From Artemia franciscana (lineage: Eukaryota; Arthropoda; Branchiopoda; Anostraca; Artemiidae), in the NCBI RefSeq assembly GCF_032884065.1, contig NC_088881.1, forward strand, positions 7,713,047 to 7,777,046: 64,000 nucleotides of DNA, given 5' to 3'. The notes beneath the pieces are model-generated. The model was not told the DNA's origin, did not search any database, and worked only from the letters and a program-made list of their open reading frames with translations. A program made the position numbers and the translations under genes. Positions 1,086 through 62,513 of the stretch are shown here, one piece after another. Position 1 is the first letter of the stretch; every line of letters starts with the position of its first letter.

Positions 1086-2122
1086 TTCCCCATGAAGGAA
1101 AAGTTGGAGGGGGATGAAATTTGGCAGGTTTCTTAGTTGGAGCTCGGGCTACGAAATGCATCCCTCCCCATCCCTCTACAACCACTGGAACCGAAGATCG
1201 CTTAACATTATCGTGGTTCGCCTCTTTATAGAGGCACGAGTGTGCCTCCTTGATCTCTACTTATTAAAAGAATTAAAAAACGTTAGCGTAAAGAGCGAGG
1301 CGTTGGGAGGGGACAACTCTCTTCGTATACGGAATAATTTCTGTTCGTTTTAAATTTTAATGTCGCTCTTTACTTTCAGTTGAAAAAACTTCTTCTTTAT
1401 TAACTTTCTGAACGTTTTTGGTTTCATGCAAATTTTGATTTTCGCTCACCGTACATGAATAACTAAAATGAAATTTGCATATTAATTTTTTTTGGGGGGG
1501 AGGGGATAAATGGCCTTCTCATAGTTTTGATCGGACGATTTTGAAAAGAAAAAGGTTGTGGGAGGAGCCCTAGTTGCCCTCCAATTTTTGACTACTTAAA
1601 AAGGCAACTGGCACTTTTTATTTTTTACGAACGTTCTATTAGTAATAACTATAAGTAACTTACGAATTAACTTACGTAGCGAACTTTTATATTGATATGT
1701 TTTCATTGTGTATATAAGAGGGTTCGCCCCCTCATCAATACCTCGCTCTTTAATTTATAGCTTGAATTTTGTCCCACTTCTTTAAGAATGAACCCTTAAT
1801 CACAAAGGCCATAGAATAAATAGTTGAAATTACTAAAAATACTTTAGCGTAAAAGTTCACATTTAGTTCACAGTTCACATTTAGCAGTCAATGGATAAAT
1901 TGTCTGACTGCTTTTGCCCGGATACAACGGTCGCTATGCTATGTTGTAGACTTATGTGCAACTAGCTGTTGGGGTGGCGCTTCGCACCACCCCAACAGCT
2001 AGCCAACCCAACACCCAGTTGGTGGGGGCACTTTGCGTCCCCCCAAGCCCCTTCACGCGCGTAAGTCGTTAAGCGCCATATTAGTTACGCGCCATTGTAG
2101 TTGTATCCCTGTGTCCCACCTG

Positions 2123-2126
<4 letters not shown>

Positions 2127-2171
<45 letters not shown>
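2127..2171. repeat. (TA)n microsatellite in Helitron (copy 1)
   Basis: About 22 TA units follow the decayed helicase in element orientation. The copy 2 version (33450-33545) has more than twice as many. Confidence 0.95.
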
Positions 2172-2177
<6 letters not shown>

Positions 2178-2178
2178 T

Positions 2179-2368
2179 TTCAACTACGTAAAACTTGCGA
2201 TTATACAATATTCTTTGCTGTCCCATTGTCTGTGCATATAAATAGATTGTCAGGTTTACCGACTCTTGAACATGCAACATATAATTGTCCATGGGGAAAA
2301 CAATCCGTATTCATATCTATACCTCATTATTCTAATGATTGCCCTTGAGCTTCGTTGATGGTGATTTC
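2179..2368 (-). pseudogene. Helitron (Rep/Hel, PIF1-like) helicase C-terminal fragment
   Basis: On the minus strand the frame reads EITINEAQGQSLE, two stop codons, then [38 protein letters not shown] and [11 protein letters not shown]. The TIN-AQGQS motif and the [17 protein letters not shown] block are typical of the last helicase motifs of Helitron and PIF1 proteins. The rest of the protein (Rep domain, helicase motifs I-IV) is absent. The longer open frame across this place, containing [16 protein letters not shown], is a shifted-frame shadow. Confidence 0.8.
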
Positions 2369-2544
2369 CAATCGAACATTCCCTGTGTCCCGGTCGTCAT
2401 TTATATTCCCTGTGTCCCGGTCGTTATTTGTGTCCCGGTGTCCCAGTCTGTAATTTCTCTTTGAGTGTCCCGTTCGTCATTTGTATTCCCGGTGTCACGG
2501 TCGTCATTTGTGTCCCGGTTTGTAATTTTGTCAGTCAACAAACA

Positions 2545-2646
2545 TGACGTCAGTCGACAAACAACTTCATGACGGCATAATGCTCAATCTTTATAATGAC
2601 GTCAGTCGACAAACATGACGTCAGTCGACACACAAACATGACGTCA
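2545..2646. promoter_or_regulatory. Cluster of four CRE-type octamers in the Helitron
   Basis: The palindrome TGACGTCA occurs at 2545, 2597, 2616 and 2639, mostly within the repeat CATGACGTCAGTCGACAAA. It is the consensus ATF/CREB site. Here it sits near the Helitron 5' end, and any regulatory role is untested. Confidence 0.45.
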
Positions 2647-2879
2647 GTCAACAGACAGACAAACAACTCATTTTTGTATATATAGATAATATCGTGACAA
2701 TTGCTTGGATTAATTGTTACAATATAATCTTGGATACAAAGGAGTGAGTTCTACGTTCGAGATAGTCCCTGAGGAATCCGGATGTGGGTTTTAGCCATGT
2801 CCTTTTAACGGTTTATGCAAACTGCACGCTCTAAACTAGCGTGGGTAAAAAATAAGTTTTTGCAAAGGTAGGTGACTTA

Positions 2880-19433: not shown

Positions 19434-19926
19434 AGACCGGGATTCTCAATCTGTTTTGGGCCATGCCCCACTTAGGCATTTCTACCTGATACCTTTCCCA
19501 TAATTTTTAAATTTTTCTAATTGAAAATTTTAAGTGTATTCACTTGAAGAAAGCTTCAAAAGACATTATGTACAAATATTATAGGTAATGTATAATATAG
19601 TTATGTATAATGTATAATATAGGTATAATATATAATAATGTATAATATAGTTTTGTTTATGAACAAAAGGTAATTCGTTCGGGCCGTCCTCTTGGTGTAT
19701 TTTATACTAGTTAAAACATATCCCGAATACAATACGCTTTATGGTGTCATTACAAAACTATAAAGTGGGTTTTTGCTCTTTTAATGTACATGAATGTAGA
19801 CATTTTTTTTTACCATTGAGGCTTTAAATTATAGGCAAAAAAAGGCTGAATGTCCTGCCCACGGCCCACCAAATATATTGTCATGCACTACCTGTGGGGC
19901 CTGAACCCCACATTGATATTCACGGA
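19434..19926. mobile_element. hAT-like MITE, unit 1 (copy 1)
   Basis: The left end is near GGGATTCTCAATCTG. The right end, inverted, is CCGTGAATATCAATGTGGGG. The conserved interior CATGCCCCACTTAGGCATTT and CTGTGGGGCCTGAACCCCAC resembles hAT termini of the CAGTGATTCCCAA type. No transposase. Confidence 0.5.
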
Positions 19927-32405: not shown

Positions 32406-33446
32406 AGATTTTCCCCATGAAGGAAAAGTTGGAGGGGGATGAAATTTGGCAGGTTTCTTAGTTGGAGCTCGGGCTACGAAATGCATCCCTCCCCATCCCT
32501 CTACAACCACTGGAACCGAAGATCGCTTAACATTATCGTGGTTCGCCTCTTTATAGAGGCACGAGTGTGCCTCCTTGATCTCTACTTATTAAAAGAATTA
32601 AAAAAGTTAGCGTAAAGAGCGAGGCGTTGGGAGGGGACAACTCTCTTCGTATACGGAATAATTTCTGTTCGTTTTAAATTTTATTGTCGCTCTTTACTTT
32701 CAGTTGAAAAAACTTCTTCTTTATTAAATTTCTGAACGTTTTTGGTTTCATGCAAATTTTGATTTTCGCTCACCGTACATGAATAACTAAAATGAAATTT
32801 GCATATTAATTTTTTTTGGGGGGGAGGGGATAAATGGCCTTCTCATAGTTTTGATCGGACGATTTTGAAAAGAAAAAGGTTGTGGGAGGAGCCCTAGTTG
32901 CCCTCCAATTTTTGACTACTTAAAAAGGCAACTGGCACTTTTTATTTTTTACGAACGTTCTATTAGTAATAACTATAAGTAACTTACGAATTAACTTACG
33001 TAGCGAACTTTTATATTGATATGTTTTCATTGTGTATATAAGAGGGTTCGCCCCCTCATCAATACCTCGCTCTTTAATCTATAGCTTGAATTTTGTCCCA
33101 CTTCTTTAAGAATGAACCCTTAATCACAAAGGCCATAGAATAAATAGTTGAAATTACTAAAAATACTTTAGCGTAAAAGTTCACATTTAGTTCACAGTTC
33201 ACATTTAGCAGTCAATGGATAAATTGTCTGACTGCTTTTGCCCGGATACAACGGTCGCTATGCTATGTTGTAGACTTATGTGCAACTAGCTGTTGGGGTG
33301 GCGCTTCGCACCACCCCAACAGCTAGCCAACCCAACACCCAGTTGGTGGGGGCACTTTGCGTCCCCCCAAGCCCCTTCACGCGCGTAAGTCGTTAAGCGC
33401 CATATTAGTTACGCGCCATTGTAGTTGTATCCCTGTGTCCCACCTG

Positions 33447-33551
<105 letters not shown>

Positions 33552-33552
33552 T

Positions 33553-33742
33553 TTCAACTACGTAAAACTTGCGATTATACAATATTCTTTGCTGTCCCAT
33601 TGTCTGTGCATATAAATAGATTGTCAGGTTTACCGACTCTTGAACATGCAACATATAATTGTCCATGGGGAAAACAATCCGTATTAATATCAATACCTTA
33701 TTATTCTAATGATTGCCCTTGAGCTTTGTTGATGGTGATTTC
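33553..33742 (-). pseudogene. Helitron helicase C-terminal fragment (copy 2)
   Basis: Counterpart of 2179-2368. It keeps the more usual TINKAQGQS (Lys where copy 1 has Glu) and reads GIDINTDCF. The same two in-frame stops precede GID. Confidence 0.78.
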
Positions 33743-34406
33743 CAATCGAACATTCCCTGTGTCTCGGTCGTCATTTATATTCCCTGTGTCCCGGTCGTTA
33801 TTTGTGTCCCGGTGTCCCAGTCTGTAATTTCTCTTTGAGTGTCCCGTTCGTCATTTGTATTCCCGGTGTCACGGTCGTCATTTGTGTCCCGGTTTGTAAT
33901 TTTGTCAGTCAATAAACATGACGTCAGTCGACAAACAACTTCATGACGGCATAATGCTCAATCTTTATAAAGACGTCAGTTGACAAACATGACGTCAGTC
34001 GACACACAAACATGACGTCAGTCAACAGACAGACAAACAACTCATTTTTGTATATATAGATAATATCGTGATAATTGCTTGGATTAATTGTTACAATATA
34101 ATCTTGGATACAAAGGAGTGAGTTCTACGTTCGAGATAGTCCCTGAGGAATCCGGATGTGGGTTTTAGCCATGTCCTTTTAACGGTTTATGCAAACTGCA
34201 CGCTCTAAACTAGCGTGGGTAAAAAATAAGTTTTTGCAAAGGTAGGTGACTTATATTATTTTGATAAAGTCAGAATAGGAAAGAAAGCCAAACGCAACCG
34301 GAGAGAAGCTGAGTTATTGAATCCGGTTATGAATTCTAATAGTAATTCGGATACAAGTGTCAATGCGGACTGCCAGAAAACGACTGCAGAGAATATCATT
34401 AAAATC

Positions 34407-36655: not shown

Positions 36656-36832
36656 ACGGACAAACCAAATACAGCCTGTTTCTTTTTTATGTTTGTTTTT
36701 TTCTGAGATGGAAAGTGTCATTCTTTTGTTGTTTATTATATTCTATTTTGTTCTTGTTTAGTTGTTTTTTTGTTCTTTTTTGTTTTTCTTTTGTTGTGAA
36801 GGTGATGCGATATTACTTTTTTTTAAAATAGT

Positions 36833-37955: not shown

Positions 37956-38166
37956 TCTTCTGCGGTGCATAAATAAGAAAGACCAGTTATATAGGGATTC
38001 AATAAGGAATGAAAATGATCCAGTTCGCACTAGAATTTATAAAAACTATAGAGATGCTCTTAATAAATTTTTGAGAAACGCGATGAAAAAATATTTTGAG
38101 TGTTAATTTAAAGATACTTGTGGTAACCCAGCTAAAACATGGAAAATTATTAAAAGTGTTATATCT

Positions 38167-39737: not shown

Positions 39738-41273
39738 ATTACAAAATTTCTGCTCGTTTTAAGTTTTAATGTCGCTCCTTACTTTCAGTTAAAAAACCTT
39801 GTTTTTTTATTTGATTTCTGAACGTTTTTGAATCAATTCATGTTTTAATTTTGGCTCTCCGTAGAGGAATAGCTAAAAAGAAATTTGCATATTCATTTTT
39901 TTGTCTAAATGGCTTTCTCATAGTTTTGATCGAATGATTTTTAGAAAAAAAAGAGAGGGGAGGAAGCCTAGTTGCCCTCCAATTTTTTGGTTACTTAAAG
40001 AGGCAATTAGAACTTTTTATTTTTTATGAATGTTTTTAGTAGTAAAAGACATACGTAACTTATATATTAGCTTACGTAAGGAACTTTTGTATTCTAATAT
40101 TTTTATTACATATATTAGGGGATTCCCCCCCCCCCCGTCGGTACCTCGCTCTTTACACTAAAGCTTAAATTTTGTCCCAATTCATTAGGAATGCCCCTGA
40201 ATCACAAAAGCCGTAGAATAAATAGTTGAAATTACTAAACATACTTTAGCGTAAAGAGCGAGGTATTAGGAGGAAGTGAGCCCCTCATAATCGTAATAAT
40301 TTCTGTTCGTTTTAAGTTTTAATGCTGCTCCTTACTTCCAGTTGAAAAAATTTGTTTCCCCATAAATAAGGCAAATTTGCTCAGGCTCGTAACTTTTGAT
40401 GAGTAAGACTAAACTTGATGAAACTTATATATTTAAAATCAGCATTAAAATGCAATTTTTGATGTATCTATTGAAATCAAATTCCATTTTATTGAGTTTT
40501 GGTTGCTATTGAGCCGGGTCGCTCCTTACTACACTTCGTTACCACGAACTGTTTGACAATGGTCAAAGTTCATAACTTGCAGCCCCTCCCCTGGGCACTG
40601 TTGAGGATTAAATCGTCCCAAAAGACATATTTATTAGGTTTTTCGACTATGTTGAACAAAATGGCTATCTCAAAATTTTGATCTGGTGAATTTGGGAACA
40701 AATGAGCGTTGGAGGGAGCCTACGTGCCCTCGAATTTTCGGTCAATTAAAACTAGAGCTTTTATTTTTCGTTAGAATGAGCACTCTCGTTACATTATAGG
40801 ACCACGGGGTCGATATGATCACCCCTAGGAAAAAAACAAACAAAAACGCATCCGTGATCTGTCTTCTGGCAAAAAATACAAAATTCCACATTTTTTAGAT
40901 AGGAGCTCAAAATTTCTAACAGAGGGTTCTCTGATACGTTGAACGTGATGGTGGGATTTTCGTTTAGATTCTTTTCTACCATTTCTACCAGAGGGTTCTC
41001 TGATACGTTGAACGTGATGGTGGGATTTTCGTTTAGATTCTATGACTTTTACAGGTATTTCCCCCTATTTTCTAAAATAAGGCAAATTCTCTCAGACTCG
41101 TAACTTTTGATGTGTAAGACTAAACTTGATGAAACTTACATTTTTAAAATCAACATTAAAATACAGTTCTTTTGATGTAACTATTGGTATCAAAATTCTG
41201 TTTTTTAGAGTTTTAGTTACTATTGAGACAAGTCACTCCTTACTACAGTTTGTTACCATGAACTGTTGGATAA
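39738..41273 (+). repeat. R elements with deletions (copy 2)
   Basis: Counterpart of about 9150-11272. The foldback's left arm is missing, about 650 bp is deleted at 40345 (GAAAAAATTTGTTTCCCC junction), and the second R has a local duplication of about 65 bp (GAGGGTTCTCTGATACGTTG at 40921 and about 40988). Confidence 0.75.
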
Positions 41274-42668
41274 TTTTGAATCACTATTTGTAGTTGGATT
41301 CGTTCACGTTTGTTGATGTTTCAAGGAGACACTGATTAAAAATGGAATAACAGGATTTACTACAAAGGTCCTTGTGAAATTTTGACGGTGAAACTTTTGA
41401 AAAGGAAGGCAATATTTACTTTAAAGTTAAACCTGATGAGATCGTCAAATGCAATATTGACAATTCAAATTCCAGAAGCAAATTTAAGGAAAACTTTTTT
41501 TATATGCTTAATCCAATACTTACTGTAAAAACTCGTTAAAATATTTTAGGGTCTTCATTATCTGCAAGGGGAGCTTTTTTTATTTTTACCAAGCTCACTA
41601 GTCCCACTTGAATATAAAACTTGCTCGTGTTTAATTTTCTGATAACAAGCGCTGGCATTAGCAAGAACTCTTGCTAGTGTGACCAGTCTGAGTGGCTGTG
41701 TTCTGACAAACACGGAAATAGAATCTGAAAAAAAAACTTTCAGCAATACGGAAGATCTATAGATACTTTCATCTATAGGGCTTGGGAAGAGACATAACCT
41801 TTTAGGCTTCGTTATTGGGAATCATTTTGTTAAGTAATAACGATTTTCTATTTCTAAAGTCTACTTTTTTGTTCTTTGATCAGTTCGTCCTGGCTTGCTT
41901 TTATTTTAGCTTAAAACCAAATGTTTTCCCAGTTCTTTGCTGTCTTACATATGCTAAGACCTCTAAAATCTGATTTGTCAAGATTGTATTTAATATTTGA
42001 TCGGAATTAGCTTTTCCTCCAATTTGTTCTTCTTGGTTGTGTCATTTTATTTTTCAGTAGTATCACGTCTGATATAAATCTTTTGATTTGCCTTCTATAG
42101 CTAAATTTGACTTCGTCCATGTTTTTGGTTTTCATCTTTTCGATCATTGAGATTCATTTTCCGTCTTTTCACTTTGGTGTTTCGTTACCCACCAAGCATT
42201 GATAACATCGTTAAAATATTACCAATTCTAATATCAATATTATTCAACCAATCACTTGGTTCTTTTAAAAAAAAATTTTTACATTTTGTAAAACAAGAGG
42301 GGGGATCAGTTTCTTCAAAGAAGTTTTTTGGGCACATTTTATATTTTATTGGGTAACTGAAGCAGTCTTTGTATGTTTACTTTTTTTGAAAATCTTATTT
42401 CTGGTAATTTTTTCAATTAAAGTAAGTATAATCACTATTGAGGAACATTCCTCATTGGCATTGCTGTCAAAATGTACTATCATTATTTAAGGCCTTTTCA
42501 GTATTAGATTATGCAACACGGCTTGAATTGTCAATGTATAAACCTGAAATTGGCTGGTAAATTACAGATTCGTGACTGTCACCAGTTAATCAAAGGATGT
42601 TAACCAATTGGCAACCAACTCGTTACGCTCTGACAGATCCTTGAACAACAAACGAAACAAAATCAACC
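41274..42668. other. Unassigned stretch (copy 2)
   Basis: Counterpart of 11273-12679, with small indels and no recognisable gene. Confidence 0.5.
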
Positions 42669-43145
42669 AAACAGTTCGTGGTAACGAACTGTAGTAAGGA
42701 GTGACCCGGCTCAATAGTAAACGAAACTCTAAAAAACGGAATTTTGATGCTAAAAGATACATCAAAAGAATCAAATTTTTATGCTGATTCTAAATATATA
42801 AGTTTCATCAAATTTAATCTTTGTTATCAAAAGTTACGAGCCTGAGAAAATTTGCCTTATTTTGGAAAATAGGGGGAAACACCCCCTAAATGTCATAGAA
42901 TCTTAACGAAAATCACACCATCGCATTCAGCATATCAGAGAACCCTATAGCAAAATTTTGACTAAAGTTTGACTCTTGCCACAATTCTGCTTTTTAAAAC
43001 AATCAAAAGCTTTATAGCGTAAAGAGTGAGGGATTGCAGAGGGGACAACCCATTTCATATACGGAGTAATTTCTGTTCGTTTTAATTTTTAATGTCGCTC
43101 CTTGCTTTCAGTTTAAAAAACTAGTTTTTTTTTATTTAGTTCATA
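42669..43145 (-). repeat. R element with large internal deletion (copy 2)
   Basis: Counterpart of 12680-13165 with the same deletion join, so the deletion predates the duplication. Confidence 0.75.
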
Positions 43146-44563
43146 AAGGGACGGCATTTTTGTTTTGATGCGATGAAAAATGTAGAGATGATTTTTAAGA
43201 CATGTCCCTGTGTTTCATCCAAGAGTCCCACCGACACCTTCAGCCCTATATACGAGCCCTCATACACATTAATTTTTGCCCCCTTGGAAAAATATCTGTG
43301 GAGGCAAATTTCCTTTTAAGACATGGATCATGATTTTTTTATGAGGTAACTTTTATTTTATGTGACTTTTATTGTATTTTTTCGGGGGGAGGGGGAAACA
43401 AAGAATAGCCCCTGAAAGCAGTACATATACATATTCTCAATTCATTTTTCCAGTCTTAACAAAGTCTTAAACCTCATACTAAAATGTTTTTTTTTATGCT
43501 CAAGATAGAGAACAGTAATTCTCCAAAACATTTTAGTCATGGTGATTTTAAAGGCTACCGTTTTCATTTCAATTCGAATTCATTCTTGGTGGGCTTGGGC
43601 TATTTTTCGAAAATGCAATGTATTGTTTAGGCGACAAACTTTTATCATTAAGGTCAGTCGACATGCTAGATTAATATAAATAAAGAAAAACCTTTCTGAA
43701 ATGGCTTGGATGAAAATGAAAATAAACAATAAACAAGAGGTATTTAAGAATGTTTTGAAAGTATTTTTTCTAAAAAAGAAATTTTTGCCATGGTTTCCGG
43801 AATTTCAATATATTTTTTCGTAACAAACCTTCATCGTTAACGTCAATCGACATTATCAACATAAATAAATATATCAACATAAATAAATAAAGAAAAACTA
43901 TTTTAGAATGGCCCGTGTTAACATGAAAATAAACAAAAAACAAGATATATTTAAGAATGTTAATCTTGAGACTTTATTGTCGCCGAAGTATGTATGTGTG
44001 ATTGATATGTGACTGTACTGTAAATTGGTTTTATATATTATTCCTAAGTTTATATTTAGTATTACATACGGGGCAAAGCTTTCTGAGGTATCATGGATTC
44101 TCTTTCACCGCACAAAATTGGATACTGAATCTATGCAAATTGCACATCATTGATGATGCAACATCAATGACAACATCAAAGTCGATGATGCAATATCGAT
44201 GATGCAATATCAATGATGATATCAAAGACGCCAAAATAGAATCATTTGAAGCCTCACAATCTATCGGAGTAAGAGAATCATTATCATTGATAAGCATTAA
44301 TTTATGGGAAATAACTTTAAACCCAAAGCAAAAACAAACCTTTTACTTCAGTCTGAATTAGTTTATTGTGTTGGTGAGTGCTTAGGCCTTCATTGTGGGA
44401 CAGATGGTTTCACATCAAATGGTCAGGACTAATGTTTTGAAAATAGCTAAGAAATTAAGAGTTCCGCTTTAATAAAAATTAGGCTTCAACTTTCTATACA
44501 AAAATATAAAATATTTCAAAGAATACTCATAACTAAAGTAAATTTAACAAAAAATATTTAACA
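43146..44563. other. Downstream flank of transporter (copy 2)
   Basis: Counterpart of 13166-14578. The GATGATGCAATATC region at 44145-44220 has one extra 12-base unit. Confidence 0.5.
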
Positions 44564-44767
44564 TTATGGAAGTTGATTATTTTCTTGTGTTACTATAGGT
44601 GTATTATTTACATTGTTCATCCTAGATTCTACTTCATCGCTTTCTCCTTCAGCCTTGTAATTCCAGGATTGTTCAGAGCCGGATCCAAACATAAGGAAGA
44701 AAATCGAGTCTGCTGCTAACACACTGCCAGCCATAATAAAGACCGCCGACCAAGCTTCAAGGGTTTG
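44564..44767 (-). CDS. Transporter terminal exon, TM12 and C-terminal tail (copy 2)
   Basis: The acceptor is TTATTTTGCAG. The exon encodes QTLEAWSAVFIMAGSVLAAD, then FFLMFGSGSEQSWNYKAEGE, an acidic and Asn-rich tail and TAA at 44564. A variant ATTAAA polyadenylation hexamer lies about 95 bp downstream on the minus strand. Its use is unproven. Confidence 0.88.
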   Translation of the reverse strand, partial: QTLEAWSAVFIMAGSVLAADSIFFLMFGSGSEQSWNYKAEGESDEVESRMNNVNNTPIVTQENNQLP

Positions 44768-47700
44768 CTGCAAAATAAAGGTAAAATCAGGATAAAAACT
44801 GAAAAGTAGTAAAAAGGAAAAATAACAAACAAGGCGAATCGTGCACGTTGTCTTTCAGAAGGAAATTTTTTTCCAAATCCAATTAAAAAACATTTGGCAC
44901 CAAAGTTTGCAAAACAATAGCAAAATTAAAAAACCAATAACCATAGCTGAAAAATTAGGACTAAAGCAAAACACTAGAAAATTATTAGCAAGGCTCTATC
45001 TCTACCTCCACCCCTACCTCTAGTTGTTATTTATGGCGGAAAAATCTGGTAAGGTCCTTACATCCAAATAAAGTCTAGGATTTTAAATCAGGATACAAAA
45101 AGAATTGAGCCAAATTTTAAAAGCTGTGAAACATTGTATCAAACAAAAATTACTACTAAAAATAATTACAGTCCAAAATATTTAAGCCTGAAAACAGTTA
45201 GATCCCCGGTGCTTTTACATGGTTCTTATTGAGGTTAAGTACTTGGTAACACAAATAGTGTATAACTCCCAAGTTGAACATGTGAAATTAAAATTCCTGT
45301 AAGAGTTTTATCAATAGTAGATGTTAAAGTGTCGAGTACCATGTTTAAACCGTTCTATCTTCAAATTAAATCGATATGGAGCTTCCAATACCACGCATTT
45401 GTAGTATTTGCGTATTTTTGAGACAGACCCACATTTGGTATCTATAATGTGGTGTTTGCAACAAATTACATTCATAGAACTATCTGTAAACTCTTAGATT
45501 CATTGCAAACTTAAGCTATTTGAAAACTTTGCATGCTGACCAATGGTCTGCGTAGCATAGGCATTGACCTTTTGACTCCCTGCCTTCGGTCGGGAGTGTA
45601 TTGCACAGTTAAAGGTAGAACCATCTGACCCTTCTCGTGTTTTCCTCCATATTTCATCACATTCATCAGCAATGGAGAGACGCATGTCGACAAATTCTGA
45701 ATGCCACAATGGGCCTGGACAAAGCTCGAATGCGACCCAAGTAAGTAAGTAAGTAAGTACATTTCATCACATATCCATTTTGAGCTAGGTCAGCTCTCGG
45801 CTGAGCTTACAAAGTCATACGGCTTACCCCTGTTCCAAACCAAATAACCGCCAACACCAGGACTCGAACCCCCGCCCTCAAGGACAATTGATTTCACGTG
45901 TAATCTTTGGTTATAAACCACTATAAAATTCTAAAAACTTACAGCTTCAAAGTTCTTGGATATATAAAAGCACACAAGCGCACTTTTAACTACGGACTAA
46001 AAACCAAAAATCAAAATCAAAATATTACAAAGGAGTAAAGTAGAAACAGACTTACATTTTCATCTGTCATGAATCCTACCAGGACTGGGCCCAGCCAGGA
46101 AACCAGCATAGATACACCATTTGTTATTCCAAACAGAGTCACTATGGGAAAAATGTTATCATAAAATAGATAAACAAACATTAGTAATTATATTGTTAGC
46201 TGAGTAATTTTAAGAGCCAATAAGAAATGTAAAGAAGAAAAGCCGAATATCCTCCCATCTAAAGCTTTTTCTAAGCATATACCAATAACCAAATTTGAAC
46301 TTTTCATGACCTGACCAATAAACCAATGAATCTAAGAAATGTCTTTGTTGGAAAAGAGAGTTTCAAGGCTTTACATAAAATGGATAAGGCAAGATACCTG
46401 CAGACTTCTTTTATTACAAACTCTATTTTTGATCGTATAATAAGTTACTAAAAGATGCAAAAACAATCCTGGGTTAGTACTAATATGCCATCTACCTAAC
46501 AGGCTACATACAAACATAAAAAATATAGATTCTATTCAATCGAAAAGGAATTCTATTCAAGCTACTTAAAAAAAGGAAAAGAACAAACAGAAGAAAGGAA
46601 GAAATGCCAAAATAGATATTACAAGGCCAAAAATAGGTAGCATATTACGGAAAAACAAAATATATAAAATTCATTGAACTAACATGTGGCCATACAACGA
46701 TAATAAAAATGGAAATCATCCGTGAACAGAACAAGAAAAAAACAAATACGTGAAAGCATCTTAATGACAGCAAGTGCAAAAAAAAATTGAATAAAAATTG
46801 CTTTAGCAATAATATTTTTTTTAACATTTCATACTAATCAGAGATTAATAAACTAAGTTAAAGAGGTGACTAAACCTGTTCATTTTGTGAATAAACTAGA
46901 CATTCAAAAGCACTTAAATTTTGCAGGAGTATGAAATTATGTCTTGTGACTTGTAGACATGCTAATCAGCTAACCGAACAAAAATTAATATTAATGAAAG
47001 GTTTCTCTTAAATTATATATATTTTTAATTGAAAATTAAATCCTAGAGGAAAAACCGGTCGAGTAGTTTTATTTCACTGTCAAAAACCAGCAGAAAAGGT
47101 GATAAGTAAAAAGAGTTTCAGTCGTTTTTATAGTTTTCTTAGAGCATCAATGGCAGATAAACAGTATTTTAACCGTTTGTATTGGTTAAATAGTAAGTTA
47201 CATAGACAATTATACCTCAACAAAATAGAATAGGTTCGGAGTTCATTTTCTAATGAAAGTGAGCTTCTTATTTAGTTACACAGTTTGATGCAGTTGTAGG
47301 GTTAACTTGTAAAAAAGGAGCGTTGAAAAAATCTAAACAAAATCAGAAAGCAAACGATACCAAATAGCAAAGACTGCCATAAGAGCTTCATAATTTTGAA
47401 ACAGTTGAAAGAAAACTTTATAAAAAACTGTAATTTTCCGCTTTAAGTATTTTCTCGAAAAGGTTCAAATGGCTGAAATTTATTTTTATATTCCAGGCAC
47501 TTTAAGGGAATAATACCTCAGGTCAGAAGGCAACCCGCTTGTAAAATTCTGAACAATAAGCTCAGGTCTAAAAGGCAAAAATAAATGATAGGAGACCAAA
47601 TTACCTGAGAAACTGGGTGCTATATCAATGTGGTTAATGAGCCAGCCACCGTAATTTCCAGCTTCAACAACTTGTGATAACATCAGCATTGCAATAATTA

Positions 47701-50700
47701 ATTGAATGTTACATCCAGCGCCTGCCATTACAAAGAGGCATAGTGCTGGTCCTAAATGACCTAAAAAGAAAATAAGTTTTAACATTTTTTTGACGTAGAA
47801 AAAGACATCCTCGCTGGATGAAGTTACGTATCCAGTTTGCTCATTCTTCAAAATTATAAATATATTTCCGACCTCTATACCAATAGTGAGTTTTATGTAA
47901 GTTACTAAAGACCCCCTTCCAAAAAAAAGTAAACTGAGCGACAGCTATATACTCAGCCTTAAAGCAAAAATTATTTATTGAAAAATACAACAGGTGGTAA
48001 TACCTACGAAAAGTAAACCGTCTTTGAGCAGAAAGAAAAATAATTTGTAAAGCTTTCTTCCATACTCTGAGGAAATCTCTAGTACTAGAACTAACAGTAA
48101 AGCTAGAGAACTAATTTTTACTATACTGCAAAACTGAAACTGCAAAACTTTTTACTAAAACTGCATTTTTAAGTGGAGCGATGGGTAGTACTAGCTTCTT
48201 GCACTGAGGCTAACCTTGACGAGAATACGGTGAAATTGTTCGCGGGAAGGATACCCAAAACAAGCCAAGTTTGTACGTTTAGGCTATAGAAGGGAAATTG
48301 GACGGACAGATTGCTGAGACGAGAAATAATTACACTCACAATCCTGCAAACGCAAGAACCTAAACGAAAATCAATATTCAACAAACTTTTGATAACAAAT
48401 AAATAAACTTGAAACTTAAACTAGGTAATATCAACCCAATTACCAATTAGAGTCCATATCTTTCGTACTGCAACGGTGGACAGCCATTTCCTCTTTTTGC
48501 ATAAATCGGCGAGTGGACACAATATCAAAGTAGAAATCCATGACAAGAAATATGGTAGAGCCAGGATGACAGCATTCTAAAATATAAATTAAGTAAGCAA
48601 AGAACGAACTAAAAGGCAAGGCCTTTATCGTTGTTTTCGGATTTTTTTGACAAAATATAAATAGAGTTTTGTGCTGAATAAGGTTTTGATTAAATTCTTT
48701 TTATGAGCAGAAACATCAGCCCCAGACAGATATCCTCTTAGATTGGGTCGTTGCTTCAGAAAATGAACAATCTTATCAAATGAACGATGATTATATCTAT
48801 GTTTGTTTGGGCCCCAGGAATGTAAATGTTGTATTTTTTCTGTATATTATTGTTGTTGTTTTGCAAAATACGATTGATGAAAAATACTAAGAGTTTTAAG
48901 GAGTGAAAACAAATTTCTTCAATGTTTCAATCCATCTAGATTGCTTTTTGCATCGTAAAATGGCAGCGCGGTAATTTTCAGAATATAGAATATCGGAAGA
49001 GATATCGGAAGAGATATTCTGTATATCTCTGTATCGATGTTGTATATAGAGATATTCTATATACAATATAGAACATCAGAATATTGGAAGAGACTATTTC
49101 CGATAAAAATTTACAGATATGCATGCATACAATTATTGTAGTAATGCACTTAGCAAAATGTATCAACGCAGTGATGACTAAATATGTAGAAAACGAGGGG
49201 TTTTGAGATTCTTATGACACTAATATACTCTGGGATTATCATTTTGTCAAAGATCTTATTTTTTTGGTGTCTCAACCTATTCTGGGGTATAAGCTATTTG
49301 GTAGAACTATTTTAGGAATATAGTCTTTGAATATCCTGGAGACACTTCCAAGTCAAATAAACTAGTAAGTAATATCAGTACTAGGAGGCATCCAGCCTCG
49401 AAATTTGGAAAATATCCAAAAAAATGTACCACAATGACGTTGTACGTAGACCGGGATTCTCAATCTGTTTTGGGCCATGCCCCACTTAGGCATTTCTACC
49501 TGATACCTTTCCCATAATTTTTAAATTTTTCTAATTGAAAATTTTAAGTGTATTCACTTGAAGAAAGCTTCAAAAGACATTATGTACAAATATTATAGGT
49601 AATGTATAATATAGTTATGTATAATCTATATATATAAAAATAAGTTGTCTGTGGATCTGTGGATCTGTGGATCTGTGGATCAGGTGACGATCCACAAAAA
49701 AGGTAAAAAACTAAAAACTAAAAAAAAAAACTGAAAAAACTAAAAAAAGGCAAAAACTACAAAAAAAACTAAAAACTAATAAAAAAAATAAAAAAGCTAA
49801 AAAACTAAAAAAACTAAAAAAACTAAAAAACTAAAAAAACTAAAAACTAAAAAAAAAACTTAAAAAAAGGAAAAAACTGAAAAATAGAAGAGAAAAAGAA
49901 AACTAATAAAATTAAGAATAAAATAAAAAAAAATAAAAAAGATAAAAACTAAAAAAAAAGTAAAAAGAAAAAACGAAAAAAACTAAAAAAGCTAAAAAAA
50001 AAGGTAAAAACCAATCAAAAACTAAAAAGAAAAAAAGGAAAAAAAAACTAAAAAAACTAAAAACTAAAAAAAAAACTTAAAAAAAAGGAAAAAACTGAAA
50101 AATAGAAGAGAAAAAGAAAACTAATAAAATTAAGAATAAAAATAAAAAAAAATAAAAAAGATAAAAACTAAAAAAAAAGTAAAAAGAAAAAACTAAAAAA
50201 GCTAAAAAAAAAGGTAAAAACCAATAAAAAACTAAAAAGAAAAAAAGGAAAAAAACTAAAAAAAAATTTCATCTAAAAAACTAAAAAAAACTAAAAAAGG
50301 TAAAAACTAAAAGAACTAAAAAAGAAAAAAAACTAAAAAAAGGAAAAAAACTGAAAAATAAAGGAGAAACAATCTAAATAAATGACGACACTCAAAGAGA
50401 AAGCGACCGAGACAAAAGGAATGTTCGATTAGCAATCAACAAAGCACCGGGACACAGGGAGTATAAATGACGACGACCGGGACACAGGGACATAACTACA
50501 AAGGGGACGCCGGGGTGCACAGGGGGATATATAAATGAATATCTATATATATAATTCTGTGGATCTGTGGATCAGGTGACGATCCACAAAAAAGGTAAAA
50601 AACTAAAAACTAAAAAAAAAACTGAAAAAACTAAAAAAAGGCAAAAACTACAAAAAAAACTAAAAACTAATAAAAAAAATAAAAAAGCTAAAAAACTAAA

Positions 50701-53700
50701 AAAACTAAAAAAACTAAAAAACTAAAAAAACTAAAAACTAAAAAAAAAACTTAAAAAAAGGAAAAAACTGAAAAATAGAAGAGAAAAAGAAAACTAATAA
50801 ATTAAGAATAAAATAAAAAAAAATAAAAAAGATAAAAACTAAAAAAAAAAGTAAAAAGAAAAAACGAAAAAAACTAAAAAAGCTAAAAAAAAGGTAAAAA
50901 CCAATAAAAAACTAAAAAGAAAAAAAGGAAAAAAAAACTAAAAAAATAAAAACTAAAAAAAAAAACTTAAAAAAAAGGAAAAAACTGAAAAATAGAAGAG
51001 AAAAAGAAAACTAATAAAATTAAGAATAAAAATAAAAAAAGATAAAAACTAAAAAAAAAGTAAAAAGAAAAAACGAAAAAAACTAAAAAAGCTAAAAAAA
51101 AAGGTAAAAACCAATAAAAAACTAAAAAGAAAAAAAGGAAAAAAACTAAAAAAAATTTTCATCTAAAAAACTAAAAAAACTAAAAAAGGTAAAAACTAAA
51201 AGAACTAAAAAAGAAAAAAAACTAAAAAAAGGAAAAAAACTGAAAAATGAAGGAGAAACAATCTAAATAAATGACGACACTCAAAGAGAAAGCGACCGAG
51301 ACAAAATGAATGTTCGATTAGCAATCAACAAAGCACCGGGACACAGGGAGTATAAATGACGACGACCGGGACACAGGGACATAACTACAAAGGGGACGCC
51401 GGGGTGCACAGGGGGATATATAAATGAATAAAATTAAGAATAAAATAAAAAAAAATAAAAAAGATAAAAACTAAAAAAAAAAGTAAAAAGAAAAAACGAA
51501 AAAAACTAAAAAAGCTAAAAAAAAAGGTAAAAACCAATAAAAAACTAAAAAGAAAAAAAGGAAAAAAAAAACTAAAAAAACTAAAAACTAAAAAAAAAAC
51601 TTAAAAAAAAGGAAAAAACTGAAAAATCGAAGAGAAAAAGAAAACTAATAAAATTAAGAATAAAAATTAAAAAATAAAAAAGATAAAAACTAAAAAAAAA
51701 AGTAAAAAGAAAAAACGAAAAAAACTAAAAAAGCTAAAAAAAAGGTAAAAACCAATAAAAAACTAAAAAGAAAAAAAGGAAAAAAACTAAAAAAAATGTT
51801 CATCTAAAAAACTAAAAAAAACTAAAAAAGGTAAAAACTAAAAGAACTAAAAAAGAAAAAAAACTAAAAAAAGGAAAAAAAACTGAAAAATAAAGGAGAA
51901 ACAATCTAAATAAATGACGACACTCAAAGAGAAAGCGACCGGGACAAAAGGAATGTTTGATTAGCAATCAACAAAGCACCGGGACACAGGGAGTATAAAT
52001 GACGACGACCGGGACACAACTACAAAGGGGACGCCGGGGTGCACAGGGGGATATATAAATGACGATGGCGACTCAGGGAATGGTCGATTCACAGGTGGGA
52101 CATAGGGACACAACTACAATGGCGCGTAACTAATATGGCGCGTAACGACTTACGCGCGCGGGGGGGATTGGGGGGGGGGGCGAAGCGCCCCCACCAACTA
52201 GGTGTTGGGGTGGCGCGAAGCGCCACCCCAACAGCTAGTATATAATATAGGTATAATATATAATAATGTATAATATAGTTTTGTTTATGACCAAAAGGTA
52301 ATTCGTTCGGGCCGTCCTCTTGGTGTATTTTATACTAGTTAAAACATATCCCGAATACAATACGCTTTATACAATGCATGGTGTCATTACAAAGTTATAA
52401 AGTGGGTTTTTGCTCTTTTAATGTACATGAATGTAGACATTTTTTTTACCATTGAGGCTTTAAATTATAGGCAAAAAAAGGCTGAATGTCCTGCCCACGG
52501 CCCACCAAAATGTTGTCATGCACTACCTGTGGGGCCTGAACCCCACATTGATATTCACGGATATAGACCCATCGAGTCAAAATTGGATTTGTTGTGAAGT
52601 ATTTAGAAAAGATAATAACTTAATAACTTTCGAAGTAAAAATCTTAAGATATATAGTAAAAGGCTAACTAGAAGGACATCCTTAGTTTTGACCAATATTA
52701 GTACTCCAAATGAGTATATCCATCCGATCCTTGTCGTCTGTGTCTATTCCAAGTACTTCCTTTCTGAACTCTAATAGTGATTATATCATAAACAAGAGGT
52801 AAGAGCTCATATGACACTTGTGACGAGGTTGGAAGAGCCAAGAGCTCATATGCTCACCAGAGGCTTAATACCGGTTGGGATTTAAAATAAAAGCTCTGCG
52901 ACACGAGGTCCTTCTAAATATAAAAAATCATTAAGATCTGATATCCCATTAGTAAGCTAAAAATATATCAGTTTTAAATTTTTCCTCTCCCTTCAGCATC
53001 CCAGATGGTGGAATCGGGGAAACAAGTCAATTTGTGCATGTCCCTAACACGCTTACCAATTTTCACTAATAGACTCTGGAATTATCATTTTGTCCAACAT
53101 TTTGTCATCTCATCCTATTCTCTGGTATAAGCTATTTGGTAGAACTATCTTAAGAATATAGTCCTTGACTATCCTGGAAGCACTTCCAAGTCAAATAAAC
53201 GAGTAAGTAATATTAATGCTAGGAGGCATCCTGCCTCAATGTTTAGATGATTACTTTTGAACACCTTATCATTAAGATTTATGCCTAAAATTATCCATTA
53301 ATAAAGCATGTTGAGAAATAAAAACATTTTGCTGAACCTTGCACATAGATAAAATCCTTACTGTTTTTGTTACTTAATGTGGCTAAAATTAGAAGAATAT
53401 CAAAAAATGTAGCAATATGACGTTGTATCTAGACTGGGGATTCCCAATCCGTTTTGGGTCATGCCCCACTTAGGCATTTCTATCTGATACCTCTCTCGTA
53501 ATAATTAAATCTTGTTATTGAAAATTTTACTTGTATTCACTTGAAGAAAGCTTCATGGGATATTAACTTGGTATTTTATTTGGGCCTACCTCTTGGCATA
53601 TTTAACGCTAATTAAAATATATTCCAAATACAACACGTTTTATACAATGCTTGGTTTCATTACAAAACTATCAAGTGGGTTTTGCTCTTATAATGTAAAC

Positions 53701-56700
53701 GAATGTAGACATTTTTCTACCATTAAGGCTTTAAAGTATTGTCAGCCCAAGGCTGAACGTCCTGCCCACGGTCCACAAAATTTTGCCATGGGGTACCTGT
53801 GGGGCCTGAAACCCACATTGGGAATCACTGATATAGACCCATCGAGTCAAAATCGAATTTGTTGAGAAGTATTTGGAGAAGATAGTGTCTTAATGACTTT
53901 TGAAGTAAAAAATCTTAAGATATACAGTGAAAGAGTAGCTAGAAGGATATTCCTAGCTTTGACCAATAGTAGTACTCCAAATGAGTATATTCAACCAACC
54001 CCTGTCATCTGTGTCTATTCTAAGTAGTTTCTTCTTGAAATCTACTAAAGTGATTACATCATTAAAAGCAATATAAAGTGACTGTGAACACCAGTCACTC
54101 ATTTTTGTTTTATGAGGAGCAGTGGAGAAGAAAATAGAAAGAAACTTACACTTTTGATGTCAAAGCCAAAGATAGTCCTTAGGTATATTGGCAAATCCAC
54201 TAGAAGGATGAGGAATCCCCAATTGTGACCAATATTAGCTATCAAAATTGAATAGAAGGGCATCGATGTCAAAATGGATTTCCAGGGTATTGGCAAGGCC
54301 TAGAAAAACATTTTATTTCAATTTAGGGCATTACAGGCCAGGCTGCAAATACTTCTATCAAAAATGTTTGAAGATAGGGTTAAATGTTCTTTTCCAATTG
54401 AGTATTCGAAGCAAGTAATATCAGAATTTATATAATTAAAAAAATAAGTTAAAGTAGATCAGATGCAAGATTTTCAACAAAATTTGGCCACAAAGAAAAT
54501 ACGTTAGAAAACATACTTTCACTAAAATCAATTATTCCTGAGACATAGACATACCAAAAAAGCTATCCCTTACATTACCAGCACAGGTCTTATATTTATG
54601 TGACTTGCAACATATAAGATTTATCTACCAATATTAAAAAACAAATGAAAGTAAAGTATGACATGAAAACTTTTAATAGCATACGGATGCTTAAATAAGG
54701 GTTTAAATGCAATTTACTTTTTAAATTTTGAACGAAAGCTATTGTTTGTACACAAATAAGCTCTACCTGAGATACTCTAAAAAAAGTTTTATTCCACTTT
54801 GAAAGCTATTGTTAACCAATGTACACAAATAGGCTCTTCCACAGATACTGTGAAAAAAAATTTTTAATTGCCCTTGTTCTAGATTTTTCGAAAACGTTTA
54901 AAATTCACAATGTTAACGTGAAAAGGGGGAAGCTAAGAAAGATTCAGCCACCCTCATATGGAACATATTTCTGTTTCGAGATGATGCATTTGAAGCCTGT
55001 TATGTTTTTAATTTAATTTATATTCCTTTTTAATGCCAAACCCTGTGTTACCCTGGATGTGGCGAAAATGTATCTCAAGCTTTAATCCAAATCTTTAAAT
55101 AAACGTTTAACCTTTTTTAAACAATGGCTTTATAAAATGAGCTGTAATTTTTTGCATCAGTGTCCAAAATTAACTATTATTTCAGCAATAAAATAAAATT
55201 TTCGCCCCCTCATCTGGTTCATTTATTCTTCCTTTTTCGTATGGGATTTCTATTAGGAGTGCTTCAAATCTTTAACCGAAAAGTAAAGACAAAAATGAGT
55301 TTATAAATGAGGATTTATGATATTTCCGTTTAATAAAATGTAGTTCCTCATCACATTATTTTGATTTTAATTTTTTTTTAGAAGTTTGTAAAATTTTAAA
55401 AGACTATTTACCTTATTTGACACATGTGCATCTTTTGCAATTTGTGTTTTTATATATGTTTTCTCCTTCTCACTTATTCTTGGATGTTCTTCAGGATTGT
55501 CATGAACTATCAACAGCCAGAATACGGCCCAAACGACACCAAAACAGCCTTCAATATAAAACACAGCTTCCCATCCAATATTCTCAATAATAAAACCGGT
55601 TAGCAGAAGACCTGACACCGTACCAAGCTCAGCACCTATAAAAAGAATAAAGTCAAAGCTCGCGGTACAAAATTCATTGACGGGAACCCAAAGTTTCCCT
55701 CGGAGAAGAAAACAAACCAGTGACACTTAGCAATAACCAGCAAAACGCTAATGCAAGTTACAGTATCGTGAATGAAAAGTATTAACCAAGTTTATTTTAT
55801 TCATCTTTGTGTTTCCATTATATTTAGCATAAAATAAAGGATCAACTTTTGAAGAGGGGTACTGTGGATATAAACCTGTAGTAGCATATAGTAATGATAC
55901 TCTGATTGGCAGAACGAGACCGAGAAACTAAAAGAATCGATATTTAAAATGTTCCAAAAAAGAATTCAAATCAATCCATCAAAAGTTTACATCCTTAGAA
56001 AAGGGATCTTATTGCGAAATTTACATATCCCTATCTACAAAATGTCGAATTTAAGAATGTTTTTCGAAAAATAAGGAAAGGGTTTATTTTTTGTGGTCTT
56101 TTTGTGGTATCAATTGAAATTTGAATTTTAACTATAGTTTAATTAAGTCATTTGAACTTTAATTAAACGTTTTTAAGCAAATCAAAATAGTAAAAAACTG
56201 TTCTACTGGTGGCATTTTATCATATATCACAGAACAGTGGTTTTGGCACAATGGCACAATTTGGCACATATCCCTATCTACAAAATGTCGAATTTAAGAA
56301 TGTTTTTCGAAAAATAAGGAAAGGGTTTATTTTGTATGGTCTTTTTGTGGTTTCAATTGAAATTTGAATTTTAACTATAGTTTAATTAAGTCATTTGAAC
56401 TTTAATTAAACGTTTTTAAGCAAATCAAAATAGTAAAAAACTGTTCTACTGGTGGCATTTTATCATATATCACAGAACAGTGGTTTTGGCACAATGGCAC
56501 AATTTGGCACATATCCCTATCTACAAAATGTCGAATTTAAGAATGTTTTTCGAAAAATAAGGAAAGGGTTTATTTTGTATGGTCTTTTTGTGGTTTCAAT
56601 TGAAATTTGAATTTTAACTATAGTTTAATTAAGTCATTTGCACTTTAATTAAACGTTTTTACGCAAATCAAAATAGTAAAAAACTGTTCTACTGGTGGCA

Positions 56701-59700
56701 TTTTATCATATATCACAGAACAGTGGTTTTGGCACAATGGCACAATTTGGCACATATCCCTATCTACAAAATGTCGAATTTAAGAATGTTTTTCGAAAAA
56801 TAAGGAAAGGGTTTATTTTGTATGGTCTTTTTGTGGTTTCAATTGAAATTTGAATTTTAACTATAGTTTAATTAAGTCATTTGCACTTTAATTAAACGTT
56901 TTTACGCAAATCAAAATAGTAAAAAACTGTTCTACTGGTGGCATTTTATCATATATCACAGAACAGTGGTTTTGGCACAATGGCACAATTTGGCACATAT
57001 CCCTATCTACAAAATGTCGAATTTAAGAATGTTTTTCGAAAAATAAGGAAAGGGTTTATTTTGTATGGTCTTTTTGTGGTTTCAATTGAAATTTGAATTT
57101 TAACTATAGTTTAATTAAGTCATTTGCACTTTAATTAAACGTTTTTACGCAAATCAAAATAGTAAAAAACTGTTCTACTGGTGGCATTTTATGATATATT
57201 ACAGAACAGTGGTTTTGGCAAAAAGTTTTTGGCAAACAGTGGTTTTGGCAAAATATCCTTAGAAAAGGGATCTTATTGCGAAATTTACATATCCCTATCT
57301 ACAAAATGTCGAATTTAAGAATGTTTTTCGAAAAATAAGGAAAGGGTTTATTTTGTGGTATCAATTGAAATTTGAATTTTAACTATAGTTTAATTAAGTC
57401 ATTTGCACTTTAATTAAACGTTTTTAAGCAAATCAAAATAGTAAAAAACTGTTCTACTGGTGGCATTTTATGATATATTACAAAACAGTGGTTTTGGCAA
57501 AAAGCCATCGAGTGATAATTCTTTTTAGAAGTAACATTTTAGTTTCGTATGTTATGATGCAAAGTCCACTAATTTTTTTATTAATTAATATTTACTGTTC
57601 ACATCGTCCAGCTCTGTAGTTTAATTCAGATATTGGTAGAAAGAATCAAATTAGTTTCAGTTATAATTTTTCAATTACACTTTAAAGGTTATCCCAGCCT
57701 ATCTTGAAATATTTTGATCAGATAACAGGAAAATGAGAAAGTAGATCTTACGCTGTGTCTTACTTTCTAAAATATGTAATTATAGGCATATCCGCACAAA
57801 TTTATGAAAGTAGTGTTAAGTCCAAAACAGGTAAAAAAAGACAAATTTAAATAAATTTCATTCGTCCAAGATATTGTAGGTAAGACAAAAAAAAGCAAGA
57901 TTTTGAAAGTACATGAGTTCAAGGAACAGTAGTCCATGACAAACATGTTCTATTTTGGGATAAGATTTGTTGGCATTTCTGAGATATTAAAATATAGTCA
58001 AAAAGATAGATATACCTATACTATTTACCATTTACTTGGCAAAATAAACAAAAAATAAGCTTAGAAGGCTCATAAAGCGTTCCTGAGAAAGCTCTAATTA
58101 TACAAACTGAAAAGAAAATTATTCTGTGTGGAACATATAAGAATAATTACCTCCATAAACCAGCGCTGAAATGGTGCTTCGCTCTGTAGGTGGGATCCAT
58201 TTTGCTATCATTGGGTGCATAGACGGGAATGATGGACCCTGTAAAAACAAATAAGTGCTTTTGGTGAAAAATGCAGAAACTATTGGCCAACTCACTAAGA
58301 CGTGTGCTTGTCTCAGCAATTGTTTAGTTTTTAAGCTCATATTGAGCATTTCCTTATCCTTAATTTGTAATTACAGATATATATTTACTGGTTTATATGT
58401 GTGGCATTGACAGGTTTTAACTCCCCTAATGTGCATTTCAAAGTGAAAAAAGATTAAAACAAAATGATCAAGACCAATTTCTTAATTCTAAAATAGCAAG
58501 TTTGATCAAGTTTTCAAGTTCAAGTCTTTTATTTCAACATTCACAAATAGATAAATAAAACACAACGCTTTCGCGCTGAGGAAAACCTATGAGGGTCTGT
58601 ATTCGTGCGAAAGTCCACATATCTACTTACCTATAATAACAAATCCAATATCTCTTAAACATTAATATACAACTGTCCCTTCCCCCTTTCACTCCTCCTG
58701 ACCCCACCTTACCCCATGCCCACCCTTACCTCCCGAACCCACCCTTCCTTCCCTAATCACCTTACCACCCATAATAAAATTCAACATAGATGATGGTAGG
58801 AATGATCGTAAAAAACGTTTTATTGCTAATAATTTATCGACAATATATCACTAAAACTTTTCGTGCAAAGGTAAACGAAAGGGGATTTCTACAGCCAGTA
58901 TCTACACAGCCAAAAATTTCCTGTATTATTATTCAGTATGAGGGAGCTACAGCCATAACTCTCTATGACGTGCGTTTTTTTTATGCCCAATTGCTCAGTT
59001 TTAAAGCTCATGCTATATATTTCCTTGTATCCTCAATTCGTAATTATAAAGTATAGCCTGGTCTAAAATATAGCCTAACAAGCATTTCCAAAGTACCAAA
59101 AGATTGACCGATTTCTTATTTCTGAAATGCCAATGCTGATCATTATCAGAAAGATAATGAACATATAAAAATACAGGTAATTTTTTTCTAGTTAAAAATG
59201 CTTTATTGCTAATGATTGATTGACAGTATATGACTAAAATTTTCCGTACAAAGTTAAACGAAAGAGGATGTCTGCAGTCATTATCTGCAGAGCCAAAATT
59301 TCCTATTTTATTATTCAGTATGATGAAGCTTGAGCCAAAACTCTCTCCCTAAAAATCTCCTTGGGTGCACTACTACGGGATACCTAAAATACATACAACC
59401 TTCAGCTTAAATACCAATACAGTTATGATAACTCCTATCTTGCCCATGAGAAGCTTTTGGTACAGAGCTCTGAGCTTGGCACCTCCTCCAAGCCCACGCT
59501 CCGACACGTAGATCGTACTACAACACCATAGGCGGGAAAGGAATTTTGTTTTGTTGCATACGTGGTCAGTTCAATTGCTCCGACTCTTAGATTCAGACTG
59601 CAAGTTTCCTATCTCCAGCCGCTAGCATTGCTACCGCGCACTGTGTCCCAAAAAAAAATCGAGTTTCCATAACTTTATTGGTATCTAAGCTGTAATACAA

Positions 59701-60710: not shown

Positions 60711-60736
60711 GAATTCGATTTTGACTCGATGGGTCT

Positions 60737-61143
60737 ATATCAGTGATTCCCAATGTGGGGTTCAGGCCCCACAGGTACCGCATGGCAAAATTTTGTGGAC
60801 CGTGGGCGGGACGTTCAGCCTTTGGCTGACAATACTTTAAAGCCTTAATGGTAGAAAAATGTCTACATTCGTTTACATTATAAGAGCAAAACCCACTTGA
60901 TAGTTTTGTAATGAAACCAAGCATTGTATAAAACGTGTTGTATTTGGAATATATTTTAATTAGCGTTAAATATGCCAAGAGGTAGGCCCAAATAAAATAC
61001 CAAGTTAATATCCCATGAAGCTTTCTTCAAGTGAATACAAGTAAAATTTTCATTAACAAGATTTAATTATTACGAGAGAGGTATCAGATAGAAATGCCTA
61101 AGTGGGGCATGACCCAAAACGGATTGGGAATCCCCAGTCTAGA
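60737..61143. mobile_element. hAT-like MITE, unit 2 (inverted copy 3)
   Basis: Reverse complement of 20795-21200. The edge of the whole inverted copy lies only about 25 bp outside it. Confidence 0.55.
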
Positions 61144-62002
61144 TACAACGTCATATTGCTACATTTTTTGATATTCTTCCAATTTTAGCCATCTTAAGTA
61201 ACAAAAACAGTAAGGATTTTATCTATGTGCAAGGTTCAGCAAAATGTTTTTATTTCTCAACATGCTTTATTAATTGATAATTTTAGGCATAAATCTTAAT
61301 GATAAGGTGTTCAAAAGTAATCATCTAAACATTGAGGCAGGATGCATCCTAGCATTAATATTACTTACTCGTTTATTTGACTTGGAAGTGCTTCCAGGAT
61401 AGTCAAGGACTATATTCTTAAGATAGTTCTACCAAATAGCTTATACCAGAGAATAGGATGAGATGACAAAATGTTAGACAAAATGATAATTCCAGAGTCC
61501 ATTAGTGAAAATTGGTAAGCGTGTTAAGGACATGCACAAATTGACTTGTTTCCCCGATTCGACCATCTGGGATGCTGAAAGGAGAGGAAAAATTAAAAAC
61601 TGAGATATTTTTAACTTACTAATGGGATATCAGATCTTAATGATTTTTTATATTTAGAAGGACCTCGTGTCGCAGAGCTTTTATTTTAAATCCCAACCGG
61701 CATTAAGCCTCTGGTGAGCATATGAGCTCTTGGCTCTTCCAACCTCGTCACAAGTGTCATATGAGCTCTTACCTCTTGTTTATGATATAATCACTATTAG
61801 AGTTCAGAAAGGAAGTACTTGGAATAGACACAGACGACAAGGATCGGATGGATATACTCATTTGGAGTACTAATATTGGTCAAAACTAAGGATGTCCTTC
61901 TAGTTAGCCTTTTACTATATATCTTAAGATTTTTACTTCGAAAGTTATTAAGTTATTATCTTTTCTAAATACTTCACAACAAATCCAATTTTGACTCGAT
62001 GG

Positions 62003-62513
62003 GTCTATATCCGTGAATATCAATGTGGGGTTCAGGCCCCACAGGTAGTGCATGACAACATTTTGGTGGGCCGTGGGCAGGACATTCAGCCTTTTTTTGC
62101 CTATAATTTAAAGCCTCAATGGTAAAAAAAATGTCTACATTCATGTACATTAAAAGAGCAAAAACCCACTTGATAGTTTTGTAATGACACCATGCATTGT
62201 ATAAAGCGTATTGTATTCGGGATATGTTTTAACTAGTATAAAATACACCAAGAGGACGGCCCGAACGAATTACCTTTTGTTCATAAACAAAACTATATTA
62301 TACATTATTATATATTATACCTATATTATACATTATACATAACTATATTATACATTACCTATAATATTTGTACATAATGTCTTTTGAAGCTTTCTTCAAG
62401 TGAATACACTTAAAATTTTCAATTAGAAAAATTTAAAAATTATGGGAAAGGTATCAGGTAGAAATGCCTAAGTGGGGCATGGCCCAAAACAGATTGAGAA
62501 TCCCGGTCTACGT
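62003..62513. mobile_element. hAT-like MITE, unit 1 (inverted copy 3)
   Basis: Reverse complement of 19434-19926. It contains the uninterrupted TATAATGTATAATATAGG point where copy 2 carries the Helitron. Confidence 0.5.

Follow-up and report, generated by a model that had tools for sequence, protein, structure and literature searches.

The 64,000-nucleotide stretch of Artemia franciscana DNA analyzed here (the window) carries one segment three times, and one of the three copies is interrupted by 2,614 bp that the other two lack. This arrangement raises the questions of what the interrupting DNA is, where exactly it begins and ends, and whether it arrived before or after the copies separated. 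An earlier inspection of the letters (the sequence-only reading) proposed that the insert is a Helitron and that it arrived after the separation. We therefore present an analysis of the copies, the insert, a related element elsewhere in the window, and the internal structure of the insert, followed by comparisons with published systems.

Repeated segments of the window

Large portions of the window are repeated. Positions 1-6779 recur at 31328-38166, and 10979-23559 recur at 40981-56227; long pieces of these large copies are 97.5-99.6% identical, with indels. In addition, 17955-21224 recurs in inverted orientation at 60712-64000 (98.1%). Two copies thus lie in tandem, about 31 kb apart, and the third is inverted, all in one stretch. 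The insertion site sits in the portion that is present three times. We refer to these as copies 1, 2 and 3 in order of position.

Many diverged repeats occur across the window. One family, whose members are about 76-95% alike and occur in both orientations, is perhaps another transposon; its locations include 1256-1853, 3036-4742, 8911-11272, 23551-25302, 29682-30524, 34404-36117 and 39745-41274. At 56023-57220 a 243-bp unit is repeated in tandem (4.9 copies, 99% matches), and the other large copy carries one partial unit of this array, of about 205 bp, at 23355-23559. Pfam searches within the window covered four open frames and the helicase peptide described below. They revealed a broken reverse transcriptase at 6840-8082 on the forward strand, in two overlapping frames (RVT_1, E = 7.4e-12 and 5.7e-8), which from its sequence seems to be of the non-LTR type. 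Taken with the Helitrons described below, the reverse transcriptase and the diverged repeats indicate a repeat-rich eukaryotic genome.

Boundaries of the insert and two empty sites

The insert and the corresponding empty sites are as follows.

49625..52238, + strand: insert in copy 2, almost certainly a non-autonomous Helitron, 2,614 bp, TC...CTAG, between host A and T (sequence and three-copy alignment)
19610..19611, + strand: empty site in copy 1, between A and T (read-through and alignment)
62332..62333, - strand: empty site in copy 3, inverted, between A and T (read-through and alignment)

The insert, hereafter the main element, starts with TCTATATATATAAAAATAAGTTGT, the T of TC being 49625, and finishes with ...CCAACAGCTAG, the G of CTAG being 52238; host bases A49624 and T52239 lie outside. 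Before the three-way alignment of about 3.3 kb, the insert was removed by script, so that 49624 was joined to 52239. Copy 2 without its insert is gap-free at the site relative to copy 1 and relative to the reverse complement of copy 3, and copies 1 and 3 are identical at 140 of 140 shared columns around the empty site. These coordinates, and the position between A and T, agree with those given by the sequence-only reading, as does the observation that the other copies run uninterrupted through the site, which they do between 19610 and 19611 and, inverted, between 62333 and 62332. A footprint or deletion at the empty sites had been named in advance as a result that would speak against the proposal, and the alignments of copies 1, 2 and 3 show none at either site.

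The claim that the empty sites fix both ends exactly stands in part. Because T49625 equals T52239, the alignment alone leaves a 1-nt shift in the insert ends, and within this shift the placement between A and T was chosen by the TC...CTAG convention. Also, the right flank departs from the empty sites at base 52240, the second nucleotide past the junction: copy 2 has A there, and copies 1 and 3 have G. Comparison with the paralogous empty sites indicates that the main element has no target-site duplication, subject to the same 1-nt ambiguity. As a chance control, both strands of the window were scanned for TC...CTAG between A and T at the 2,614-bp spacing, and 3 of 122,768 intervals matched, main element included. 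Empty paralogous sites are an established confirmation of such elements, as used in the available text of PMC4067079 and also reported in that of PMC6544945.

Relative age of the insertion

The flanks, about 3.3 kb in each copy, were compared with gap columns excluded. Identical positions number 3222 of 3267 for copies 1 and 2, 3228 of 3267 for copies 1 and 3, and 3249 of 3289 for copies 2 and 3; the corresponding differences are 45, 39 and 40 (1.2-1.4%). Private substitutions number 22 in copy 1, 23 in copy 2 and 17 in copy 3. A test of branching order used internal paralogs of 83-85% identity as the outgroup, which provided 173 and 505 columns only. In the right-hand alignment, the first 12 columns were set aside as end effects, since the aligned stretches do not share a common starting point; another column was uninformative, the outgroup having a third base. 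Among the remaining sites, one substitution groups copies 1 and 2, and another groups copies 2 and 3, as does a one-base indel within a run of A; no site in the 173 + 505 outgroup columns groups copies 1 and 3. These sites fix the branching order of the three copies only loosely.

Because neither empty site shows a footprint, the most economical reading is that the insertion occurred after the copies had separated, which is what was first proposed. On the simplest reading, the main insertion would be younger than the splits of the three flanking copies, and it would have happened on the lineage of copy 2 alone, once the segment had been duplicated. The further proposal of recent activity of the family can be retained in a relative sense: the comparison supports an insertion that is probably younger than copies differing by 1.2-1.4%, and "recent" is to be measured against that divergence only.

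The three copies might instead be alleles or mis-joined haplotypes, in which case filled and empty sites would represent a polymorphism. Identities of 97.5-99.6% with indels, as observed between the large copies, fall in a range that is also seen between alleles. However, the copies lie in one stretch, two in tandem and one inverted, and a faulty assembly would have had to line up three haplotypes one after another. We consider this explanation improbable, and the insertion would be recent whether the copies are alleles or paralogs.

A second explanation is that the element is ancestral and was precisely lost from copies 1 and 3 by excision, deletion, or gene conversion from an empty allele. 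The loosely resolved branching order leaves room for such a history, but both empty sites are identical, have the right length, and are free of a footprint. Precise loss would also require two events, or one event on a branch shared by copies 1 and 3, a grouping for which the outgroup comparison gave no site. It is very unlikely.

Terminal structures and a second family member

The following features concern the ends of the main element and a second element with similar ends.

49625..49696, + strand: 5' end of the main element, TCTATATATATAAAAATAAGTTGT, with four TGTGGATC repeats and a subterminal inverted repeat
49674-49681 and 49689-49696, + strand: arms of the 5' subterminal inverted repeat (by eye)
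52063..52238, + strand: sole 3' end region of the main element
52203..52233, + strand: terminal hairpin, 14-bp stem, 3-nt loop, 1 nt from the final CTAG (folding)
1962..2686, - strand: second family member, 725 bp, TC...CTAG between A and T
33286..34060, - strand: counterpart of that member in the other large copy, 775 bp, with a longer AT microsatellite
33578..33754 (equivalent 2204-2380), - strand: decayed Pif1-type helicase C-terminus in the second member, with two stops

The terminal hairpin folds with a z-score of -7.95, and 0 of 200 shuffled sequences fold as well; the segment at the 5' end (49625-49720) has a z-score of -4.24. An outer 4-bp pairing joins CTAG at 52198-52201 to CTAG at 52235-52238. 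The whole forms a 3' palindrome, 52198-52239, that includes the terminal CTAG and has a second CTAG at its left edge. A scan for perfect stems of at least 11 bp with a loop of 3-6 nt, at most 15 nt from CTRR, returned this hairpin, its mirror image and nothing else. The rule misses the hairpin of the second member because of a G-T pair in that stem; the folded stem of the second member comprises 19 bp, CTAG included.

The second member resembles the main element at both ends, with 82% identity over 39 columns at the 5' end and 82% over 168 columns in the 3' region; within the last 34 nt, one mismatch is seen by eye. Its flanks are A and T, as at the main element. Since it is present in both large copies, it is older than the large duplication. 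The simplest reading of the order of events is then that the second member would have arrived first, followed by the duplication and later by the main element.

The helicase remnant was compared with solved structures in the PDB by using a 59-residue query with X at the two stops. The best match is the bat Helitron transposase Helraiser (7lcc_A, residues 1423-1464 of 1496, E = 1.6e-6), and PIF1 helicases come next. Judged by this similarity, the remnant is a tie between the family and RepHel elements that does not depend solely on the ends.

Assignment to canonical Helitrons

The main element is almost certainly a non-autonomous canonical Helitron, which would have been inserted by rolling-circle copy-and-paste with a RepHel transposase supplied from elsewhere. 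This assignment agrees with the sequence-only reading and draws on several lines of evidence. Like the second member, the main element has canonical ends, with TC at 49625 and CTAG at 52235-52238. Its target, between A and T, is canonical and, within the 1-nt ambiguity, not duplicated. The 14-bp stem 1 nt from CTAG provides a 3' hairpin, and the two empty sites and the helicase remnant of the second member complete the set.

Several observations weigh against the assignment. The autonomous partner is putative, and a search of the window for the helicase remnant turned up the two copies in the second member and no others; the main element has only a 38-nt piece of helicase-region homology, present three times (82-84%). 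A 38-residue piece of the remnant has no match in the PDB. Neither a Helitron nor a PIF1 model of Pfam matches the remnant; the one model reported, for a herpesvirus helicase, falls short of its cut-off (E = 5.7e-5, 21.8 of 27 bits). The hairpin lies 1 nt from CTAG, whereas the spacing in canonical elements is about 11 nt according to the available text of PMC4067079. Finally, one base differs beside the insertion point, as noted above.

Some of the same features invite comparison with Helentrons (Helitron2, or DINE-1-like elements), since the available text of PMC4067079 describes 5' subterminal inverted repeats and internal tandem repeats in DINE-1-like elements also. That text gives Helentrons a preference for TT targets, but both the main element and the second member lie between A and T, and TC and CTRR ends combined with this target are the canonical set. 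The same source describes a proto-Helentron with a 5' TT, a 3' CTAG and a target between A and T. Because CTAG and the target are shared in this way, the 5' TC is the telling feature, and a Helentron is highly improbable. Expansion of a simple repeat or satellite can be dismissed with near certainty: A-rich sequence with periods of, for example, 9, 26 and 219 bp makes up a large part of the insert, but its ends are common to a second element at another site, both elements have junctions with A and T, and the terminus is a hairpin.

For the canonical Helitron, rolling-circle movement with an enzyme from elsewhere is the most likely mechanism by analogy with Helraiser. The available text of PMC4778049 reports for Helraiser TC and CTAG ends, AT targets, a 3' hairpin terminator, bypass of the 3' end, and circular intermediates. 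By this analogy, RepHel would start at the outer 5' TC of the main element, copy through an inner 5' end, and halt at the last hairpin and CTAG.

Internal organization of the main element

The G+C content of the main element is 25%, versus 34% for the window (without N). The list of open frames of 150 codons or more in the window has 5 entries, none of them inside the main element, which consists largely of A-rich repeats. It is composed of three partial units in the same direction and has two 5' ends but a single 3' end.

49625..50541, + strand: unit 1, with the 5' end and without a 3' end; ends at ...AAATGAATA
50542..51427, + strand: unit 2, opening exactly at a second 5' terminus, TCTATATATATAA, preceded by A; without a 3' end
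51428..52062, + strand: unit 3, without a 5' end; about 95% like the corresponding parts of units 1 and 2

Unit 3 leads into the single 3' end. The tail of unit 1 is 99.4% identical to that of unit 2 over 174 columns and 94% identical to that of unit 3 over 171 columns, which is too little sequence to date the internal triplication relative to the 1.2-1.4% divergence of the flanks.

This two-headed, one-tailed body may have arisen when a 3'-truncated template was copied more than once, and an equivalent tandem duplication or a nested insertion would be an alternative source. Nested insertion of a sibling into unit 1, with termination at an inner 3' end, fits the body too, and the exact inner TC with A before it is compatible with such an event. 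A plain tandem duplication would fit equally. The main element might even be a freshly integrated multimer, made in one round on a circular template that lacked the 3' terminator; unit 2 would then begin at the exact 5' TC, and only the last unit would carry the hairpin. We regard this last proposal as unlikely. If units 1 and 2 did arise in the inserting event, the locus would be a natural snapshot of rolling-circle over-replication beside an empty site.

Both the three-unit structure and the older second member are additions to what the sequence-only reading had found.

Searches of other collections

Exact scans of a viral contig collection with 30 nt of the 3' end, the 5' end, 24 nt of the 3' end, and a 38-nt subterminal block gave 0 matches each. 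With 18 nt of the 3' end, one viral contig matched (L001), and we rejected it as a chance match: the contig has 53% G+C and many long open frames, the match is 19 nt inside an open frame, and no other similarity to the window appears at E = 1e-3. A search of the viral contigs with the helicase peptide produced 6 stretches by pattern, none of which was confirmed. Both exact scans of prokaryote genome contigs for the ends gave 0 matches. A eukaryotic element would not be expected in such viral and prokaryote collections. A search for the end sequences in print gave no title on an element of this sort among the matches listed, and we do not claim that the family is absent from the literature.

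Comparison with known systems

The value of this locus lies in well-fixed ends for a Helitron family, in two empty-site controls found alongside, and in the relative timing of the older member, the segmental duplication and the main element. Having two heads, one tail and an inner 5' end at an exact TC, the body of the main element offers a small test case for tandem units in rolling-circle transposition. Apart from the ends, the order of events and this body, the results are routine annotation.

Three published systems were compared, each as described in the available text of its source. The bat Helitron Helraiser (Helibat1; PMC4778049, PDB 7lcc) shares the 5'-TC, the CTAG-3', the AT target in AT-rich surroundings, and the 3' hairpin, and its C-terminus is the best match for the helicase remnant of the second member. 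In contrast to Helraiser, the main element is non-coding and has its hairpin 1 nt from CTAG rather than 11 nt upstream; the DNA ends were compared by description. Hel-2 of insects and insect viruses (PMC4344730), also compared by description, is likewise non-autonomous, with a 3'-CTAG, a 5' subterminal inverted repeat, a 3' stem-loop and internal tandem arrays. Truncated Helitron arrays of plants (Xiong et al. 2016, via the review PMC12628747) have tandem truncated units with multiple 5' ends and a single 3' end, which the review explains by a circular template that has lost its terminator. Those arrays contain several to several hundred repeats, whereas the main element has two 5' ends in one insertion. 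The main element thus adds to a known kind of Helitron and, with its tidy internal structure, is a clean example of something ordinary.
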